From Pseudanabaena yagii GIHE-NHR1 (GTDB lineage: Bacteria > Cyanobacteriota > Cyanobacteriia > Pseudanabaenales > Pseudanabaenaceae), in assembly GCF_012863495.1 (NCBI RefSeq), contig NZ_JAAVJL010000001.1:496001-560000 (forward strand): 64,000 bases of DNA. Direction: 5' to 3'. The notes below the pieces were generated by a model that did no database searches, was not told the DNA's origin, and was given only the letters and a program-made list of their open reading frames with translations. Position 1 is the stretch's first letter. Each line of letters starts with the position of its first letter. Shown piece after piece: positions 53,933 to 62,268 of this stretch. The position numbers and the translations under genes are program-made.

Positions 53933-54450
53933 AAGTTTGTGCTACGAGAAATTCTATGTGTATAAGCCTTGTTAAATATTACTGTCAATTACTATCAATT
54001 CAATGAGAATACTCACTAGGTTTGTGCTTTTGACAGGCTAGTTACCAAAAATGATATTACATTCTTCAGGATTTATAATGTTATATGGTTAGCGTTTTGC
54101 ACCAAGCATATGACACTGTTTTTATAAATACTTGGCGATAAAAGCCGTTAGAAAAACTATGGACACAAATGGACTCGAACCATCGCCCCCCACGATGTCA
54201 ACGTGGTATCGTTATTTGCTGGAAAATTTGTAGAGTAAGGCTTTTGGGTATTGTCAACAAGGTGACGGGGTAAAAATCGGGGTAATTGATTTTTCCTTAT
54301 AAGCAATTATACATTTGCAAATCAGGGATTAATCGGGCATTAAAGTGAAATAAAAATAGTATTAGATATATGCCGATCGCCTCTGATTGATTAACTCAAA
54401 CCGCCTGTAGTTGTGTAAGATCAAGAATCTTCATAATTTTTTCGTTGGCT
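53933..54450. other. 518-bp gap with a tRNA-Val fragment at the edge of a likely genomic island
   Basis: The interval separates core-like genes from the restriction-modification island. It contains the tRNA-Val 3' fragment (54160-54208). The remaining sequence (54209-54450) is AT-rich and contains no full gene. The last ~200 bases include the likely promoter of the hsdM gene. Confidence 0.6.
54160..54208 (-). tRNA. 3' fragment of a tRNA-Val (GAC), likely integration scar
   Basis: Read from 54208 to 54160: anticodon stem-loop CCACG TTGACAT CGTGG (anticodon GAC), then GGGGC, TPC-arm GATGG TTCGAGT CCATT and acceptor end TGTGTCC plus A. The 5' half (D-arm and start of the acceptor) is absent: the sequence changes to unrelated bases beyond 54208. 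This is a partial gene, not functional as tRNA. Tyrosine-recombinase elements typically leave such a 3' piece at one end of an integrated island. Confidence 0.7.
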
Positions 54451-55401
54451 ATGGACTACACCATCAATAATAAAATCGTCTCCTTTATCTGGTCGATCGC
54501 GGATGATTGTTTGCGGGATGTGTATGTGCGGGGCAAGTATCGCGATGTGATTTTACCGATGTTTGTGTTGCGTCGTCTGGATTGCCTGTTGGAGAAAAGC
54601 AAGGCGGCGGTTTTAGAAGAGGTGCGGTTTCAGCGAGAGGATGCAGGATTAACTGATCTGGATCAGCAAGGTTTGCAGGAGGCAAGCGGCTATGTTTTTT
54701 ACAATATTTCTGACTGGACGCTGACGAAGTTAGTCAAGACGGCTACGAATAATCGTCAGATTTTGGAGGCAAATTTTAAGGCTTATCTGGATGGTTTCAG
54801 TGAGAACGTTAAGGAGATTATTGAGAAGTTTGAGCTACGCAACCAGATCAAGCGGATGGTGGAGGCGGATGTATTGTTGGGGGTGTTGGAGAAGTTTATC
54901 GATCCGCGTATTAACTTGAGTCCTGATGAGGCGATCGATCCTGATGGGCGTAGGTTGCCACCTTTGACCAATTTGGGTATGGGTTATGTGTTTGAGGAGT
55001 TGATTCGGAAGTTTAACGAAGAGAACAACGAAGAGGCGGGTGAACACTTTACGCCTCGTGAAGTAATTGATTTGATGACACATATTTTGTTTGAGCCTGT
55101 GAAGGAGCGTTTACCGCCTGTAATTACGGTCTATGATGGCGCTTGTGGATCGGGAGGGATGCTGACGGAATCGCAGAATTTTATGATCGATCCTGATGGG
55201 AAAATCAGATCTAAGGCGGCGGTTTATCTCTATGGGAAAGAGGTGAATGGAGAAACCTATGCGATTTGCAAATCGGACATGATGATTAAAGGGAATGATC
55301 CTGCAAATATTAAGTTTGGTTCGACTTTGGCGACTGATGAGTTTGCGGGGATGCGCTTTGATTTTATGTTGTCGAATCCTCCCTATGGGAAGTCTTGGAA
55401 G
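54451..55401 (+). pseudogene. hsdM: type I DNA methyltransferase HsdM, 5' part (split by ISAs1-family element)
   Basis: N-terminal HsdM helical region (MDYTINNKIVSFIWSIADDCLRDVYVRG...), then VFEELIRKFNEENNEEAGEHFTPREVIDLMTHI, the SAM-binding motif DGACGSGGML (about 229) and the N6-adenine methylase motif NPPY (about 310). The frame is cut right after NPPYGKSWK by the element at 55402. An in-frame TTG at 54445 precedes the preferred ATG at 54451. The rejoined protein is 823 aa. Confidence 0.85.
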
Positions 55402-56683
55402 CAGGGTGGTTTCATTTTCGGAAAAGCAAGCAGGAAGGGAGAAGCAGAAAATTTAGAAGGAGGAAATCAGTAAGAATAAGAGCAGGAGAGAATATCAAAA
55501 ACTTGATGAACCTGATTCGCGAGAACCCGTTGCCCCTGAGGAATCGTCCGAAAGCCAAGGCGACGAACAGTGGTCATGATAAAACAGTGAATAATTGCCC
55601 AAATAGTAGGAGCATTACCACCACGACGTAACCCCGTATCCTCTTGAAAAAGGACATCGCGCACCCAATGTAAGCGATTTTCAATGCCCCAGTGTAGGCG
55701 AATCGGGTCAAGAAACTGAGCCGCCTTGAGAGACAAGTCAGAAATATAACCAACTGATTCGACAAAAGGCTTGTCATCACGCCAGCCCTCGCGTTCCACA
55801 TAAATCAAAGACTGTAGAGACGACCATTGTTTACGTAGGTGAGTCGGCGCAGGATAAACCCAAACGCGACGGCGCACTTGACGGCTATGAGATTTGTCAA
55901 ACTCTTCAGCATAGCTAAGGGCTTCCGTGGTTTGATGTAAGTTATCCAAAATCTTGAGCAAATTCGGTTGATTATTTTTGAGCGCAATCAAATAATGCTG
56001 TTCCTGTTCAACAATTAATTTCACCGTATCTTTTTGGCAATGTAAGGCATCTAGGGTGAAAGAGGCTTTCTGCCCTTGTAAAGAGGTAATCACTTGTTTA
56101 ACGACTTCGATTTCACTAATTTGTTTGTTTTCGGATACGGCAAGGGCTATTACTTCTCCCGTTTCATGGGTAAAGGCTGATACGGTACTGGTAAAGTTTT
56201 GCCTAGAATCAGTCTGATTGGAGACAGTACATTTGATGCTTTTTCCGTCCATCGCCAGCCATTGCCCTGATTCGCCTGTATAGCTATTTCTACACCACTC
56301 GTTAAATAGTTTAACTATTGGCTCAATTTCTACTCCTTGAATGACACGACGAAAGGTCGAATATGACGGGATTCGACTCTCTGGTGCTAGCTCTAGCCTT
56401 GTTTGTAGGGTTTGCCAATGTTTCTCACAGAAATCTGCTAAGGGTCGATATCCGTGATAATTACACAATACTCCCAGCAAGGTTAAGCACATGACTAGCC
56501 ATAGTGGATGTCGCTTACCTTTACTTTTCCGATGGTCTGGGATCTGCTTTAATTGTTCTATAAAGTTCATGGTCTGGTTTTGCTTTTTGTTTAGCTCTTA
56601 ACAGACCATTTTTTACTATTTTGGCTTTGCTGTTTTTCTGTAATCCCTTCTCACTATCACTTCCCGAAAATGAAACCACCCTG
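55402..56683 (-). mobile_element. ISAs1-family insertion sequence, 1282 bp
   Basis: Inverted ends CAGGGTGGTTTCATTTTCGG (from 55402) and its complement CCGAAAATGAAACCACCCTG (to 56683) match exactly over 20 bases. The host sequence CTATGGGAAGTCTTGGAAG occurs on both sides (55383-55401 and 56684-56702): a 19-bp direct repeat, longer than the 8-10 bp normally reported for this family. One transposase gene is encoded on the minus strand. Confidence 0.9.
55467..56570 (-). CDS. ISAs1-family transposase
   Basis: This 367-aa DDE transposase starts with an N-terminal DUF4338-like half (IPDHRKSKGKRHPLWLVMCLTLLGVLCNYHGYRPLADF), followed by the catalytic motifs WLAMDGKSIK (about 123), FTLDALHCQKDTVKLI (about 198) and HWGIENRLHWVRDVLFQEDTGLRRGGNAPTIWAIIHCF (about 295-335), as in ISAs1 elements. 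It is oriented against hsdM. Confidence 0.95.
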   Translation of the reverse strand: MNFIEQLKQIPDHRKSKGKRHPLWLVMCLTLLGVLCNYHGYRPLADFCEKHWQTLQTRLELAPESRIPSYSTFRRVIQGVEIEPIVKLFNEWCRNSYTGESGQWLAMDGKSIKCTVSNQTDSRQNFTSTVSAFTHETGEVIALAVSENKQISEIEVVKQVITSLQGQKASFTLDALHCQKDTVKLIVEQEQHYLIALKNNQPNLLKILDNLHQTTEALSYAEEFDKSHSRQVRRRVWVYPAPTHLRKQWSSLQSLIYVEREGWRDDKPFVESVGYISDLSLKAAQFLDPIRLHWGIENRLHWVRDVLFQEDTGLRRGGNAPTIWAIIHCFIMTTVRRLGFRTIPQGQRVLANQVHQVFDILSCSYSY

Positions 56684-56702
56684 CTATGGGAAGTCTTGGA
56701 AG

Positions 56703-58223
56703 GGGGAACAGAAATCGATTTTGGATGGCAAGGATGTTATCGATCCACGTTTCCAAGTATCGTTACCCAATTTTAAAGGAGTTGCGGAAATAGTTCCTGC
56801 GATTCCGCGATCTTCGGATGGACAGCTATTGTTTTTGATGGATATGGTCAGCAAGATGAAGCGGCTAGATGATAGTCCTCTGGGTTCACGGATTGCGTCA
56901 GTGCATAATGGATCGTCTTTGTTTACGGGGGATGCTGGTAGTGGTGAGAGTAATATTCGCCGCTACATTATCGAAAATGATTGGTTAGAGGCAATTATTC
57001 AACTGCCGAATAATTTGTTTTACAACACAGGGATTACTACTTATATTTGGGTTTTGGCGAATCATAAAGCGCCCCAGCGTCGGGGTAAGGTGCAGTTGAT
57101 TGATGCTTCGGAGATGTATCGCAAGTTGCGTAAAAATTTGGGTGCGAAGAATTGTGAGTTTGCGCCTGAACATATTGAGAAGATTACGGAAATATATTTA
57201 GGAATGCGATCACAATTCGCTAAATATGACTCAGAGGGAGAGGGGAGTAAGAGAGAGATTTCTAAGGTTTTTGATAATCGGGATTTTGGCTATTACAAAG
57301 TAACGGTGGAGCGTCCTTTGCGGTTGGCGGCTCAGTTTACGGCGGAACGGGTGGAGAGTTTGCGGTTTGTCCCTGCTTTGCGGGAGGTGATGGAATGGGC
57401 TTATGGTGAATGGGGCGATCGCCTATATGCTGAGTTGGAGACAGATGCTAAGTACAAAAAAGCGATCGAGGAATATATCGATAAAGAAGAGCTTGCTATA
57501 TCTCCTAAGAATCGTAAGGATTTGCTATCGGTGAAGACTTGGGAGACTCAAAGAGATTTGATGCGATCGGCTGAGAAGTTAATGGGGCATATTGGCGGGG
57601 AGCTATATCTAGACTTTAATCAGTTTGCGATTATGTTTGATGAGGCTTTGAAAAAGTTAGAAATCAAGCTGTCATCGAGTGAGAAGAATCAAGTTTTAAA
57701 TGTGATTAGTTGGCGCGATGAGTCGGCAGCTAAGGTGGTGAAGAAGTTGCATAAACTCAAGGGGGATAAGCTCAATGAGTTGCTTGAGTCTTTGGGAACG
57801 GTGCAGGAGCATTTACAGGATTATGGCTTTTGGGCTACAGGGGTTAGTGGTGAGTGGGTTGAGTATGAGTCGGATAGTGAGTTACGGGATAATGAGAATG
57901 TGCCGTTAAATTATGCCCTCACCCCCAGCACCTCTCCCAGTGGGAGAGGGGAGCAGAAGAACCTCACCCCCAGCCCCTCTCCCACTGGGAGAGGGGAGCA
58001 GAAGATCCACGCTTATTTTGTGCGGGAGGTGCGTCCTCATGTGGCGGATGCTTGGATTGCTTTGGATAAGACGCAGATCGGCTATGAGATTAGTTTTAAC
58101 AAGTATTTTTATCAACATAAGCCTTTGCGAAGTTTGGAGGAGGTGACCTCGGAGATTTTGCAGTTAGAGCAGGAGACTGAGGGTTTGTTAAAGCGGTTGG
58201 TTAGTTTTGGTGAGGTAGGATAA
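56703..58223 (+). pseudogene. hsdM: type I DNA methyltransferase HsdM, 3' part
   Basis: Continues in frame after removal of the element and one direct repeat: GEQKSILDGKDVIDPRFQVSLPNFKGVAE, then MKRLDDSPLGSRIASVHNGSSLFTGDAGSGESNIRRYIIENDWLEAIIQLPNNLFYNTGITTYIWVLAN. The end is YFVREVRPHVADAWIALDKTQIGYEISFNKYFYQHKPLRSLEEV, typical of long cyanobacterial HsdM proteins. Two in-frame 45-bp repeats at 57917-58006 add LTPSTSPSGRGEQKN and LTPSPSPTGRGEQKI. The stop overlaps the next gene's ATG by 1 base (TAATG). Confidence 0.85.
57917..58006 (+). repeat. two 45-bp tandem repeats inserted in hsdM
   Basis: Unit 1 is 57917-57961 and unit 2 is 57962-58006, nearly identical (CCTCACCCCCAGCCCCTCTC and CACTGGGAGAGGGGAG). 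Each unit is a palindrome-bearing sequence and codes for 15 amino acids in frame. The repeat type (CTCTCCC..GGGAGAG) is a widely dispersed element in bacterial genomes, here captured inside a coding region. Confidence 0.8.
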
Positions 58224-58639
58224 TGTCAGCGAAGGATACTTTTCATGATGCGGTTAGAAATGGTTTAGAAAAGGATGGTTGGACTATTACATCTGATCCA
58301 TTACGGTTTGATTATGGTGATGTTACCTTTCAGGTTGACTTGGGCGCAGAGCGTTTACTGGTGGCAGATCGAGGTAATGAGAAAATAGCGGTTGAGGTCA
58401 AGAGCTTTTTAAGACCTTCGGCGATAACAGATTTTTATGCAGCTTTGGGGCAGTTTATAAGTTATCGTTTGGCGTTGCAGCAAGTGGAGCCAGATCGGTT
58501 ACTCTATTTAGCAGTACCAAATGATGCTTTCAATAGTTTTTTTCAGACTGAGTTTGCCAAGGTTGTTGTCGATCAATATGCGGTTTTGCTAGTTGTTTAT
58601 GAACCTATTGAGGAGGTAATTGTAAAATGGATAAACTAA
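58223..58639 (+). CDS. xisH: XisH family protein, first copy
   Basis: In this 138-aa protein, DTFHDAVRNGLEKDGWTITSDPLRFDYGDVTFQVDLGAERLLVADRGNEKIAVEVKSFLRPSAITDFYAALGQF matches XisH, one of three products needed for excision of the fdxN element in Anabaena. The pattern D...VEVKSF suggests a PD-(D/E)XK nuclease-like fold, which is my inference. It overlaps xisI by 13 bp. Located between hsdM and hsdS. Confidence 0.85.
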   Translation: MSAKDTFHDAVRNGLEKDGWTITSDPLRFDYGDVTFQVDLGAERLLVADRGNEKIAVEVKSFLRPSAITDFYAALGQFISYRLALQQVEPDRLLYLAVPNDAFNSFFQTEFAKVVVDQYAVLLVVYEPIEEVIVKWIN

Positions 58640-58962
58640 GTATTTATCGTAAATATATTCAAGATATTTTGACCACTTACGCTTCTTGGGGTAATCCTAA
58701 AGATGGTTTGGAAACACAGTTGATTTTTGATTGCGATCGCGATCATTATCAATGGCTAGATATTGGTTGGGAGGGGGCGGTAAGGGTCTATTCTTGTGTG
58801 ATGCATTTTGATATTCGGGATGGCAAAATCTGGCTACAACGCAATATGACGGATCTCGATCCTGCTGAGGAATTGGTGGAGTTGGGTGTGCCGAAGGAGG
58901 ATATTATTTTGGGTTTACAGCCGCCTTATAAACGCAAATATACTGATTATGGTGTGGCTTGA
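58627..58962 (+). CDS. xisI: XisI family protein, first copy
   Basis: This 111-aa protein has YRKYIQDILTTYAS, LIFDCDRDHYQWLDIGWEG and IWLQRNMTDLDPAEELVELGVPKEDIILGLQPPYKRKYTDYGVA, as in XisI, partner of XisH. The 13-bp overlap with xisH implies coupled translation. Its role outside the fdxN element is unknown. Confidence 0.85.
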   Translation: MDKLSIYRKYIQDILTTYASWGNPKDGLETQLIFDCDRDHYQWLDIGWEGAVRVYSCVMHFDIRDGKIWLQRNMTDLDPAEELVELGVPKEDIILGLQPPYKRKYTDYGVA

Positions 58963-60125: not shown

Positions 60126-61427
60126 ATGGTTATGGCTTTTCCTAAGTATGAGAGTTATAAAAATAGTGGTGTGGAATGGTTAGGAGAGATTCCTAGTCAT
60201 TGGGAAGCTAAGAGAAATCTTGGTTTATTTGATGAAAGAAAAGAAACTAATCGCCCAGATATGGAGCTGTTATCAGTAACCATCGATCAAGGTGTTATTA
60301 GACAAAGTGAGATTTCAATCAAAAAGGATTCGTCAAACGAAGATAAGGCTAAATACAAGGTAGTGTATCGAGGCGATTTAGCTTATAACAAAATGAGAAT
60401 GTGGCAGGGTGCGATCGGTATGTCAGATTTTACTGGTATCGTCAGTCCAGCTTATATCATTCTGAATACGCGCAACAAAAATTACGCTAAATTCTTCCAT
60501 TATCTCTACCGTACAGAACTATTTATTAAAGAAGCTAATCGACATTCTTATGGACTATGTAGTGATATGAATAGTTTGCGGTATGAAGATTTTAAAACCC
60601 TTTATTCACCAGTACCACCTCATGATGAAGTCAATAGAATTGTTGATTTTCTCGATCGCACCACTACCTCCATAGACCAAGCGATCGCCAAAAAACAACG
60701 CCTAATCGAACTCCTCAACGAACAAAAAGCCATCCTCATCAATCGCGCTGTCACTAAAGGGCTAAACCCTAATGTCCCTATGCGTGATAGTGGTATTGAG
60801 TGGATAGGCGAAATTCCTGAGCATTGGGGAGTCTCTCGAATTAGTTTTATCGGTAAGATAGGAAATGGAAGTACGCCTAACAGATCAAATGCTTCTTATT
60901 GGAATAATGGGGCAATTCCTTGGCTTAATAGCTCAAAAGTAAATGACATTATTATCAAATCAGCTGAACAGTTTGTCACCCCAAAAGCTGTTCGTGAGTG
61001 TCATCTTCCTTTAGTTAAGCCAAATAGTATTGTCATAGCAATCACTGGCGAAGGAAAAACTAGAGGGAATTCAGCAATATGCAAAATAGAAACAACTATT
61101 AATCAACACCTTGCTTATATAGAAATATTGGATAAAGACATCCTGCCAGAATTTCTTCATCTTTATCTTCAAGGAATGTATGAATTGATAAGGCTTAGTT
61201 CTTCGGGAAATGGCAGTACAAAAGGAGCTATAACTTGTGATGACATTAAAAAATATAAAATTCCAGTTCCTCCATTAGAGGAGCAGAAAAACATTTTAAA
61301 TGTGACTTCTAATCGGATTAAAGATATAGAAGAAGTTAGCCAAAAGACATTGGAAGGTATTGAAAAGCTTAATTCTCTAAAACAAGTTTTTATTAGTGAA
61401 GCAGTTACAGGCAAAATCAAAGTATAA
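60126..61427 (+). CDS. hsdS: type I restriction specificity subunit HsdS
   Basis: This 433-aa protein has two target recognition domains: the first starts at about 8 (YESYKNSGVEWLGEIPSHWEAKRNLG), the second at about 220 (MRDSGIEWIGEIPEHWGVSRIS...GNGSTPNRSNASYWNNGAIPWL). Coiled-coil spacers are at about 180-210 (DRTTTSIDQAIAKKQRLIELLNEQKAILI) and 385-430. It sets the DNA target of the methylase and nuclease. It follows the toxin gene with 0 spacing. Confidence 0.92.
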   Translation: MVMAFPKYESYKNSGVEWLGEIPSHWEAKRNLGLFDERKETNRPDMELLSVTIDQGVIRQSEISIKKDSSNEDKAKYKVVYRGDLAYNKMRMWQGAIGMSDFTGIVSPAYIILNTRNKNYAKFFHYLYRTELFIKEANRHSYGLCSDMNSLRYEDFKTLYSPVPPHDEVNRIVDFLDRTTTSIDQAIAKKQRLIELLNEQKAILINRAVTKGLNPNVPMRDSGIEWIGEIPEHWGVSRISFIGKIGNGSTPNRSNASYWNNGAIPWLNSSKVNDIIIKSAEQFVTPKAVRECHLPLVKPNSIVIAITGEGKTRGNSAICKIETTINQHLAYIEILDKDILPEFLHLYLQGMYELIRLSSSGNGSTKGAITCDDIKKYKIPVPPLEEQKNILNVTSNRIKDIEEVSQKTLEGIEKLNSLKQVFISEAVTGKIKV

Positions 61428-61492: not shown

Positions 61493-61909
61493 ATGCCTGC
61501 AAAAGACATTTACCATGATGCGGTCAAAAACGCGCTTATTCAAGACGGATGGGAAATTACCGCCGATCCTTACTTCATTAAGTACGAAGACGCTGAACTT
61601 TATGCAGACCTCGCCGCCCAAAAGCCGATCGCCGCACAACGTCAAGAACAGAAAATCGTTGTCGAGATCAAAAGCTTTATTGGTAGATCTCCCATGTATG
61701 ACTTTCACAACGCTATCGGGCAGTACATCGTTTACCGTAACCTCATCCAGATCACTGAACCTGAATATAATCTTTATCTAGCGATCGACGACCTCACCTA
61801 CGAAAACTTTTTTCAACGTGCCTCAATTCAATTAATCACCAAACAAAACAACTTAAAAATTATCGTTGTAGATACTCAACAGGAGCGCATACAGTTATGG
61901 ATAAATTGA
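61493..61909 (+). CDS. xisH: XisH family protein, second copy
   Basis: This 138-aa protein has DIYHDAVKNALIQDGWEITADPYFIKYEDAELYADLAAQKPIAAQRQEQKIVVEIKSFIGRSPMYDFHNAIGQY, the same length and layout as the copy at 58223. The two copies are clearly diverged, not recent duplicates. It overlaps the second xisI by 13 bp, as in the first pair. Confidence 0.85.
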   Translation: MPAKDIYHDAVKNALIQDGWEITADPYFIKYEDAELYADLAAQKPIAAQRQEQKIVVEIKSFIGRSPMYDFHNAIGQYIVYRNLIQITEPEYNLYLAIDDLTYENFFQRASIQLITKQNNLKIIVVDTQQERIQLWIN

Positions 61910-62268
61910 CCTACTATCGCGACACAATCCAAACCCTGCTCATCGACTACTACAACCTTAACCAACAGCAAAACCAAAACAATCCAATTTGCGATCGCCT
62001 AGCCCTCGACCCAGAACGAGATCAATACCTATGGCTTCGCACTGGATGGGATGGCAAAAAACGAGTTCAACATATCATCCTTTATTTACAAATCCAAAAC
62101 GGTAAAATCTGGATAGAAGAAGACAGTACCAACTTTTGTATTGCTGACGATCTGCTCAACGCCGACATACCTAAACAAGACATCATCCTCGGCTTTCAAC
62201 ATCCCAGCAAAAGACACCTCACCGAATTTGCAACCAATAGCGAAAACGAAATTTTACTCATAAGGTAA
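61897..62268 (+). CDS. xisI: XisI family protein, second copy
   Basis: This 123-aa protein has YYRDTIQTLLIDYYNL, DRLALDPERDQYLWLRTGWDGKKRVQHIILYLQIQNGKIWIEEDSTN and DIPKQDIILGFQHPSKRHLTEFA. Closely follows xisH with a 13-bp overlap, and precedes the Uma2 gene by 5 bases. Confidence 0.85.
   Translation: MDKLTYYRDTIQTLLIDYYNLNQQQNQNNPICDRLALDPERDQYLWLRTGWDGKKRVQHIILYLQIQNGKIWIEEDSTNFCIADDLLNADIPKQDIILGFQHPSKRHLTEFATNSENEILLIR

Follow-up and report, generated by a model that had tools for sequence, protein, structure and literature searches.

The hsdM gene of Pseudanabaena yagii GIHE-NHR1 lies in a stretch of 64 kb (the window, i.e., the whole stretch of DNA that was analysed) and holds two adjacent palindromic units within its coding sequence, which raises the question of where such a segment comes from and what its presence in a protein means. 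A preliminary description had placed two tandem 45-bp units at 57917-58006; their coordinates, length and orientation were re-found, the peptides given for both agree with the translation, and the reading frame is kept, as claimed, through both of them in an open reading frame (ORF) of 517 aa (56670-58223). We consider it probable, at roughly 85%, that the segment consists of a small dispersed palindromic element in two copies side by side, and that it is one of many in-frame captures of this element in the genome and the genus. The locus comprises the following features.

54445 to 55400, forward strand: 5′ part of hsdM (HsdM_N and first part of N6_Mtase; PF12161, PF02384), an ORF whose open frame extends into the insertion sequence to 55473
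55384 to 55400, forward strand: left copy of the 17-bp target repeat of the insertion sequence
55401 to 56684, no strand assigned: insertion sequence cutting hsdM, with terminal inverted repeats of about 25 bp
55467 to 56570, reverse strand: transposase of the insertion sequence (domain matches to DDE_Tnp_1_assoc and DDE_Tnp_1)
56685 to 56701, forward strand: right copy of the 17-bp target repeat
56685 to 58223, forward strand: 3′ part of hsdM with both units (PF02384; PADLOC MTase_I PDLC03029, E 6.9e-139)
57917 to 57961, forward strand: element unit 1, encoding LTPSTSPSGRGEQKN, hairpin CCTCTCCC-AGT-GGGAGAGG
57962 to 58006, forward strand: element unit 2, encoding LTPSPSPTGRGEQKI, hairpin CCCCTCTCCC-ACT-GGGAGAGGGG, -11.6 kcal/mol as DNA
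60126 to 61427, forward strand: hsdS, type I specificity subunit, open frame (PF01420; PADLOC Specificity_I)

Pairs of ORFs flank hsdS on either side (58223-58962 and 61493-62268), the first of which starts with an XisH family protein and the second of which is similar by eye.

The two units, of 45 nt each and arranged head to tail, are alike at 42 of 45 bases (93%) and together amount to an insert of about 30 residues in HsdM. The point at which the unit starts is a convention, and other copies suggest that it runs from CCCTCACCCC to GAACAAGAA. Its palindromic core gave four strand-wise matches in the window against 0.03 expected, far above chance, and has no further occurrence within the 64 kb; a chance match was rejected as the origin of the unit on this ground and because the palindrome pattern had no match in the reversed controls of the searches of the own genome, the genus and the phylum. 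Identity with an RNA family was also rejected, no match at gathering score having been returned by an Rfam search of 57600-58300. The second unit may derive from tandem duplication, or from a second insertion beside the first.

The gene that carries the units is itself broken just after its NPPYG stretch, where an insertion sequence (IS) flanked by identical 17-bp target repeats separates the two pieces. Because the IS cuts hsdM, the tolerance of the insertion, which the preliminary description had asserted, cannot be read from HsdM, and that part of the claim was given up for this gene. The identical target repeats, together with the fact that no closer relative of this hsdM allele was found (the best match has 72% identity), would also fit an entry of the units only after the break, in which case the gene would say nothing on tolerance. 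Such a late entry is unlikely: the 3′ part of hsdM still forms a 517-aa open frame, and a younger age of the IS is suggested by its identical target repeats and by the exact match of all 12 IS ends to the end pattern, given that 3 of 45 bases distinguish the two units. Moreover, Leptolyngbya PCC 6406 (L088) has, in a frame of 830 aa without interruption, PLNYA and a decayed unit at the corresponding place. As for the IS itself, six copies are present in the genome (the one at 55401-56684 included; L327-L338), all six with 17-bp target repeats, and megablast returned no match to it on plasmids. Since three of the six lie inside copies of the element and one more (L327/L328) is inserted in a palindromic repeat of another kind, the IS seems to favour palindromes as targets.

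Comparison of HsdM proteins bears directly on whether the segment is native, and the outcome in which all homologues carry it did not occur. Among 88 homologues, 82 are without insertion and have VPL and the IHxYF stretch separated by just four residues, so that the insert was rejected as an ancestral part of HsdM; four, all distant paralogues, have an unrelated 11-residue segment at the site, and two (L084 and L088) have a repeat-like insertion of their own at the same place. The insertion of L084, LTPALSHGERE, is a unit of the same kind. Repeat-like peptides also occur in the loop just upstream of the insert site in the HsdM of L083, L085 and L051; one survey of HsdM loci used 39 of the 73 eligible. 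In the AlphaFold (AF2) model of the C-terminal part of HsdM (mean pLDDT 81.4), residues 420-439, which link a strand to a helix, fall below 50, with mean values of 94 and 89 for the blocks 401-410 and 441-450, and the insert is accordingly modelled as an unstructured loop. A fold search with HsdM returned type I M subunits and other adenine methyltransferases with low TM-score, and gave no information on the insert. An origin from native HsdM sequence, by local tandem duplication or slippage and with no mobile element involved, might account for two tandem units, and the HsdM of two cyanobacteria of another family (L161 and L163) carry tandem, unrelated NLN-type peptide repeats after PLNY in the same loop. 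We give this origin a negligible probability: the unit matches dispersed copies in and between other genes, which refutes slippage as the source of the unit itself, and only the second copy may still have arisen in this way.

The dispersed element has, from aligned copies, a consensus of approximately GCCCTCACCCC(T/C)AGCCCCTCTCCC-loop-GGGAGAGGGG with a short tail; copies begin with (R)CCCTCACCCC and most end in GAACAAGAA or similar, and they occur singly, head to tail or as inverted pairs. Patterns for the two unit halves recovered tens of copies in the own genome, where the half-unit pattern with 3 mismatches gave 51 matches against 28 in the reversed control, so that its weakest matches are unreliable and the closer ones were relied on. 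The element was found in all 26 genomes of the genus, with 2 to 98 matches each, and in 57 of the 292 genomes sampled from the phylum (three of the 57 within the genus), with a maximum of 285 matches in G321. The search for the unit in intergenic and coding positions, which had been proposed as a check, thus retrieved dispersed copies in both, and the earlier statement that the repeat is widely dispersed in intergenic DNA is right only in part. When counted on the fetched loci with a still looser pattern, ORFs of 200 aa or more contain 19 of 40 clusters of the own genome, compared with 1042 of 1412 random stretches from the same loci; in the congener G005 they contain 13 of 51 clusters, compared with 1358 of 1805 random stretches (about 75% of random stretches in either genome). 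In both counts copies within 150 bp were merged and clusters less than 300 bp from the end of a locus were left out, and the count for G005 rests on about half of its 98 matches. The element avoids genes, yet only about 1.5- to 3-fold.

What the element contributes to a protein depends on the frame in which it is read. Of the six frames, five are stop-free in its CCAG form and four in its CTAG form. The 51 genic copies of the own genome and G005 use five of the six frames, with different peptides, and the sixth has a stop. A different peptide from each frame speaks against a function of the peptide. Exact copies of the two forms are distributed unequally: those inside ORFs make up 8 of 8 with CCAG versus 7 of 25 with CTAG in the own genome (p 5e-4), and 12 of 15 versus 3 of 38 in G005 (p 6e-7), a split between genic CCAG and intergenic CTAG for which the one extra stop frame of CTAG is too small an effect. 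Tandem units inside ORFs are spaced by 36 to 57 nt and by a multiple of three in 21 of 21 pairs, several of which are orthologous, as against spacings of 58, 58 and 48 outside ORFs, a multiple of three in one of three; because an ORF was required, there is some circularity in the spacing by threes and in the non-use of the sixth frame, and neither constitutes independent proof.

The element lies well inside 17 ORFs of the own genome, so that the in-frame capture of a dispersed palindrome described for hsdM stands and is not an exceptional case. By Pfam these are polA, mfd, uvrA, a UvrD-like helicase and recJ among repair-type genes; cobB, NFACT, a sulphite/nitrite reductase, an oxoprolinase, ChlH/CobN and an AMP-binding enzyme; and hsdR, a DUF559 protein, two nSTAND1 proteins, hsdM and one ORF without Pfam match. 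In G005 they are ligA, recJ, a UvrD-like gene, uvrC, mutL, cobB and uvrA (an identification for which the places of L196 and L303 agree), as well as a DUF1156/DUF559 methylase, two nSTAND1 proteins, a CHAT protein and one ORF without match. The polA gene is the sole DNA_pol_A match in the genome and its frame is open over 962 aa. Tolerance of the element, which the interrupted hsdM cannot attest, is evident from its in-frame presence in such housekeeping genes.

Merged over the own genome and G005, the element-bearing ORFs form 23 families, from which copies near ORF ends (trpF, methyltransferase, MFS, FAD and NERD ORFs) and short ORFs are excluded. Eight belong to replication/repair (polA, mfd, UvrD-like, uvrA, recJ, ligA, uvrC, mutL) and four to restriction-modification (hsdM, hsdR, L017, L315), as sorted by the author of this report, with L017 assigned by its DUF559 domain and its looks (11 of 22 without it). 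None of 30 control ORFs falls into either class, giving Fisher p values of 6e-4 (repair) and 5e-6 (the two classes together) against controls that were drawn with length weighting (30 scanned of 40 drawn from 107), are shorter on average than the element-bearing ORFs and include four without Pfam match. In G168, of another family, three ORFs were fetched for their tandem spacing, and all three are restriction-modification methylases. The leaning to repair genes might arise if enzymes that bind hairpins or nicks were active close to the genes encoding them, a conjecture to which we attach little weight.

The flanks of 11 element-bearing genes were sought in eight congeners and the sites compared. 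Clean empty sites were found in the UvrD-like gene of G007 and G012, in the oxoprolinase gene of G012, G020 and G021 and in hsdR of G012, while further sites are filled at the same places with differing unit numbers and the uvrA site of G012, G019 and G023 holds apparent remnants of the element. One loop of ChlH/CobN bears the TM-like element in G000, G007, G023, G015 and G011; the same loop in G005, G019 and G021 (L264, L265, L266) holds a different repeat, PPTPLAKGGE...PLYKGDLGGS. The recJ genes of G007, G015 and G020 failed to align in this comparison; recJ matches L252, L253, L254 and L255 (from G015, G007, G020 and G019) lie apart in two frames, as if split or interrupted. Sites that are filled, empty, decayed or swapped in related species make the process testable.

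Between species, genic copies of the element have a mean divergence of 0.22, compared with 0.44 at the 4-fold sites of their flanks, and are the less diverged in 82 of 88 pairs, which are non-independent since they share species and genes. Because genic copies diverge less than flank 4-fold sites, simple neutral decay is insufficient, and so conversion, re-insertion or selection also acts on them; conversion or repeated insertion is the likeliest cause. The inserted peptide could instead be a selected module, such as a flexible linker or contact site useful to the proteins, and the low divergence would suit this, as would the filling of the HsdM and ChlH/CobN loops by different repeats across species and the over-representation of repair and restriction genes. 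Selection of this kind is nevertheless very improbable in view of the unrelated peptides encoded by five reading frames, the absence of the element from congeners at several sites, the low confidence of the loop in the HsdM model, and differences by codon position that are far more even in the element (100/81/142) than in the flanks (186/45/885). We infer instead that the dispersed element is copied to new sites by a transposition-like process and that its copies are near neutral. Copies with a length divisible by three that enter genes would add a short Pro/Ser/Gly/Arg peptide, since the CCAG form is free of stops in five frames and the CTAG form in four, and these peptides would survive in loops and between domains; an endonuclease of the DUF559 type framed by the element is a lead to what might drive the movement.

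The single DUF559 match of the genome is a module inside L017, with a copy of the element at aa 495 before it and copies at aa 642 and, inverted, at aa 669 behind. A DUF559 module lies inside a DUF1156 methylase of G005, preceded by a copy at aa 241 and followed by an inverted one at aa 380; another occurs in an HsdR-like ORF of G018 with the element on both sides, and a third, on a plasmid of Pseudanabaena galeata, has inverted pairs on either side and belongs to a CDS of about 1620 aa that also encodes Eco57I methylase domains. All four in-gene modules examined (own genome, G005, G018 and the P. galeata plasmid) thus have the element on both sides, and the nearest DUF559 module among plasmids comes from a Pseudanabaena plasmid. 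In Synechocystis sp. B12, a DUF1156 gene is split by a DUF559 gene at the corresponding place, and plasmid homologues of the DUF1156 protein (eight of 63 records covered) match in two pieces with 82-84% coverage, as would be expected if these homologues were without the DUF559 module.

Beyond the genus, plasmid DUF559 genes of several phyla were inspected in a sample of 17 of 28 records, the remainder being five Azospirillum, two Sinorhizobium duplicates, two Neisseria and two E. coli. Exact inverted repeats of at least 20 nt between 220-nt flanks occur in six of the 17 (20-45 nt, mostly G/C-rich) and direct repeats in two more; nine show neither kind at the cut-offs used. As a control, 2000 stretches of 300 nt were taken at random from five of the replicons; such inverted repeats occurred in 0 of them and direct ones in 10. 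A nuclease gene is thus framed by a palindrome more often than chance, both in the four modules and in the plasmid sample. The loose element pattern matches 71 of 400 random 200-nt pieces in the DUF559 plasmid loci, where the repeats themselves are present, compared with 6 of 400 in the HsdM loci, so that L103, found by this pattern alone, counts for little. DUF559 is paired with other palindromes in Deinococcus, Sphingomonas, Azospirillum and Pseudanabaena, and gave ten weak matches in viral contigs. One strain of Sphingomonas parapaucimobilis has three DUF559 genes (L357, L369, L370) on three replicons; one of these genes separates sufB from sufC within an operon and another interrupts an operon of transhydrogenase genes, as would be expected of a mobile gene. 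From these arrangements we tentatively propose, with the odds against it, DUF559 endonucleases as candidate movers: the framed nuclease gene would be autonomous, the dispersed units its short copies, and both would be able to insert in frame into genes, chiefly those for restriction enzymes and methylases. The link is one of association, and palindromes might come to lie beside a DUF559 gene for reasons other than DUF559 activity. No earlier description of palindromes with DUF559 was found in the open-licence literature searched. We know of no enzyme for the TM-like repeat class, for which palindrome-framed DUF559 genes would provide a candidate.

How the element relates to known systems depends on which of its traits is compared. 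The open-licence literature searched likewise yielded no earlier description of the element in frame in cyanobacterial genes; Elhai and colleagues reportedly published a study on Nostoc repeats in 2008. Intragenic GTAG/CGTC REPs and REP dimers are described, in the section devoted to them, as lying in many cases in replication/repair genes such as uvrA, UvrD/Rep, polA and recBCD, and cyanobacteria are not among the cases named in that section (PMC3733652). The element resembles these REPs in being intragenic and in leaning to replication/repair genes (PMC3733652), but its listed copies bear no GTAG or CGTC tag at the palindrome end. Three Y1_Tnp genes are present in the genome, none flanked by the element in loci of 3.1-3.4 kb; a RAYT as the partner of the element was rejected, none having been found beside it. 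Two Y1_Tnp matches, L222 and L224, resemble RAYT and have no element nearby. Because of the missing tags and because no element-flanked Y1 transposase gene was found, the element is not filed with the GTAG/CGTC REPs. In-frame REPs in repair genes are already known for other REPs and the element adds a variant, in which the same leaning recurs in an unrelated repeat and another phylum.

As with REPINs, some copies form inverted pairs, and the element-framed DUF559 gene would be the counterpart of the REP-framed RAYT, the candidate being an endonuclease-like domain and not a Y1 transposase (PMC3116915). Rickettsia palindromic elements are presented, in the passages that concern them, as selfish palindromes found in frame in many genes of the genus, with fading identity (PMC3733652, PMC6649704). 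The likeness to them that had been proposed holds as a mode of working, i.e., a palindrome in frame in genes of known function and absent from some orthologues; the element differs from them in host and sequence, with units of about 45 bp here.

By sequence, the element matches the G/C-rich intrastrand triplex motif (TM, as in TM-ECO; earlier named PIT); the folding energies computed are those of the hairpin. The rule for this motif, as worded in the relevant part of the article, calls for a C-rich stem, a G-rich stem and a third G-rich block in mirror order with loops of 1-6 nt, and allows at most one mismatch where the stem exceeds 7 nt (PMC4666352). On inspection, unit 2 obeys it with a 9-nt stem and one T-for-A difference; its reverse strand reads CCCCTCTCCC-AGT-GGGAGAGGGG-CTG-GGGGTGAGG, compared with CCCTCTCCCTGTGGGAGAGGGCCGGGGTGAGGGC for no. 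1 (type B) of Table 1, and the two share three blocks, similar loops and inverted pairs (PMC4666352). The same source reports such G/C motifs as numerous in cyanobacteria, Microcystis especially (PMC4666352). It also lists all 23 TM copies of E. coli MG1655 as intergenic (Holder et al., 2015; PMC4666352), whereas about half of the element clusters in the own genome and a quarter in G005 lie in ORFs. A repeat reported as strictly intergenic in E. coli is, in this free-living genus, a recurrent source of new protein segments in core enzymes.
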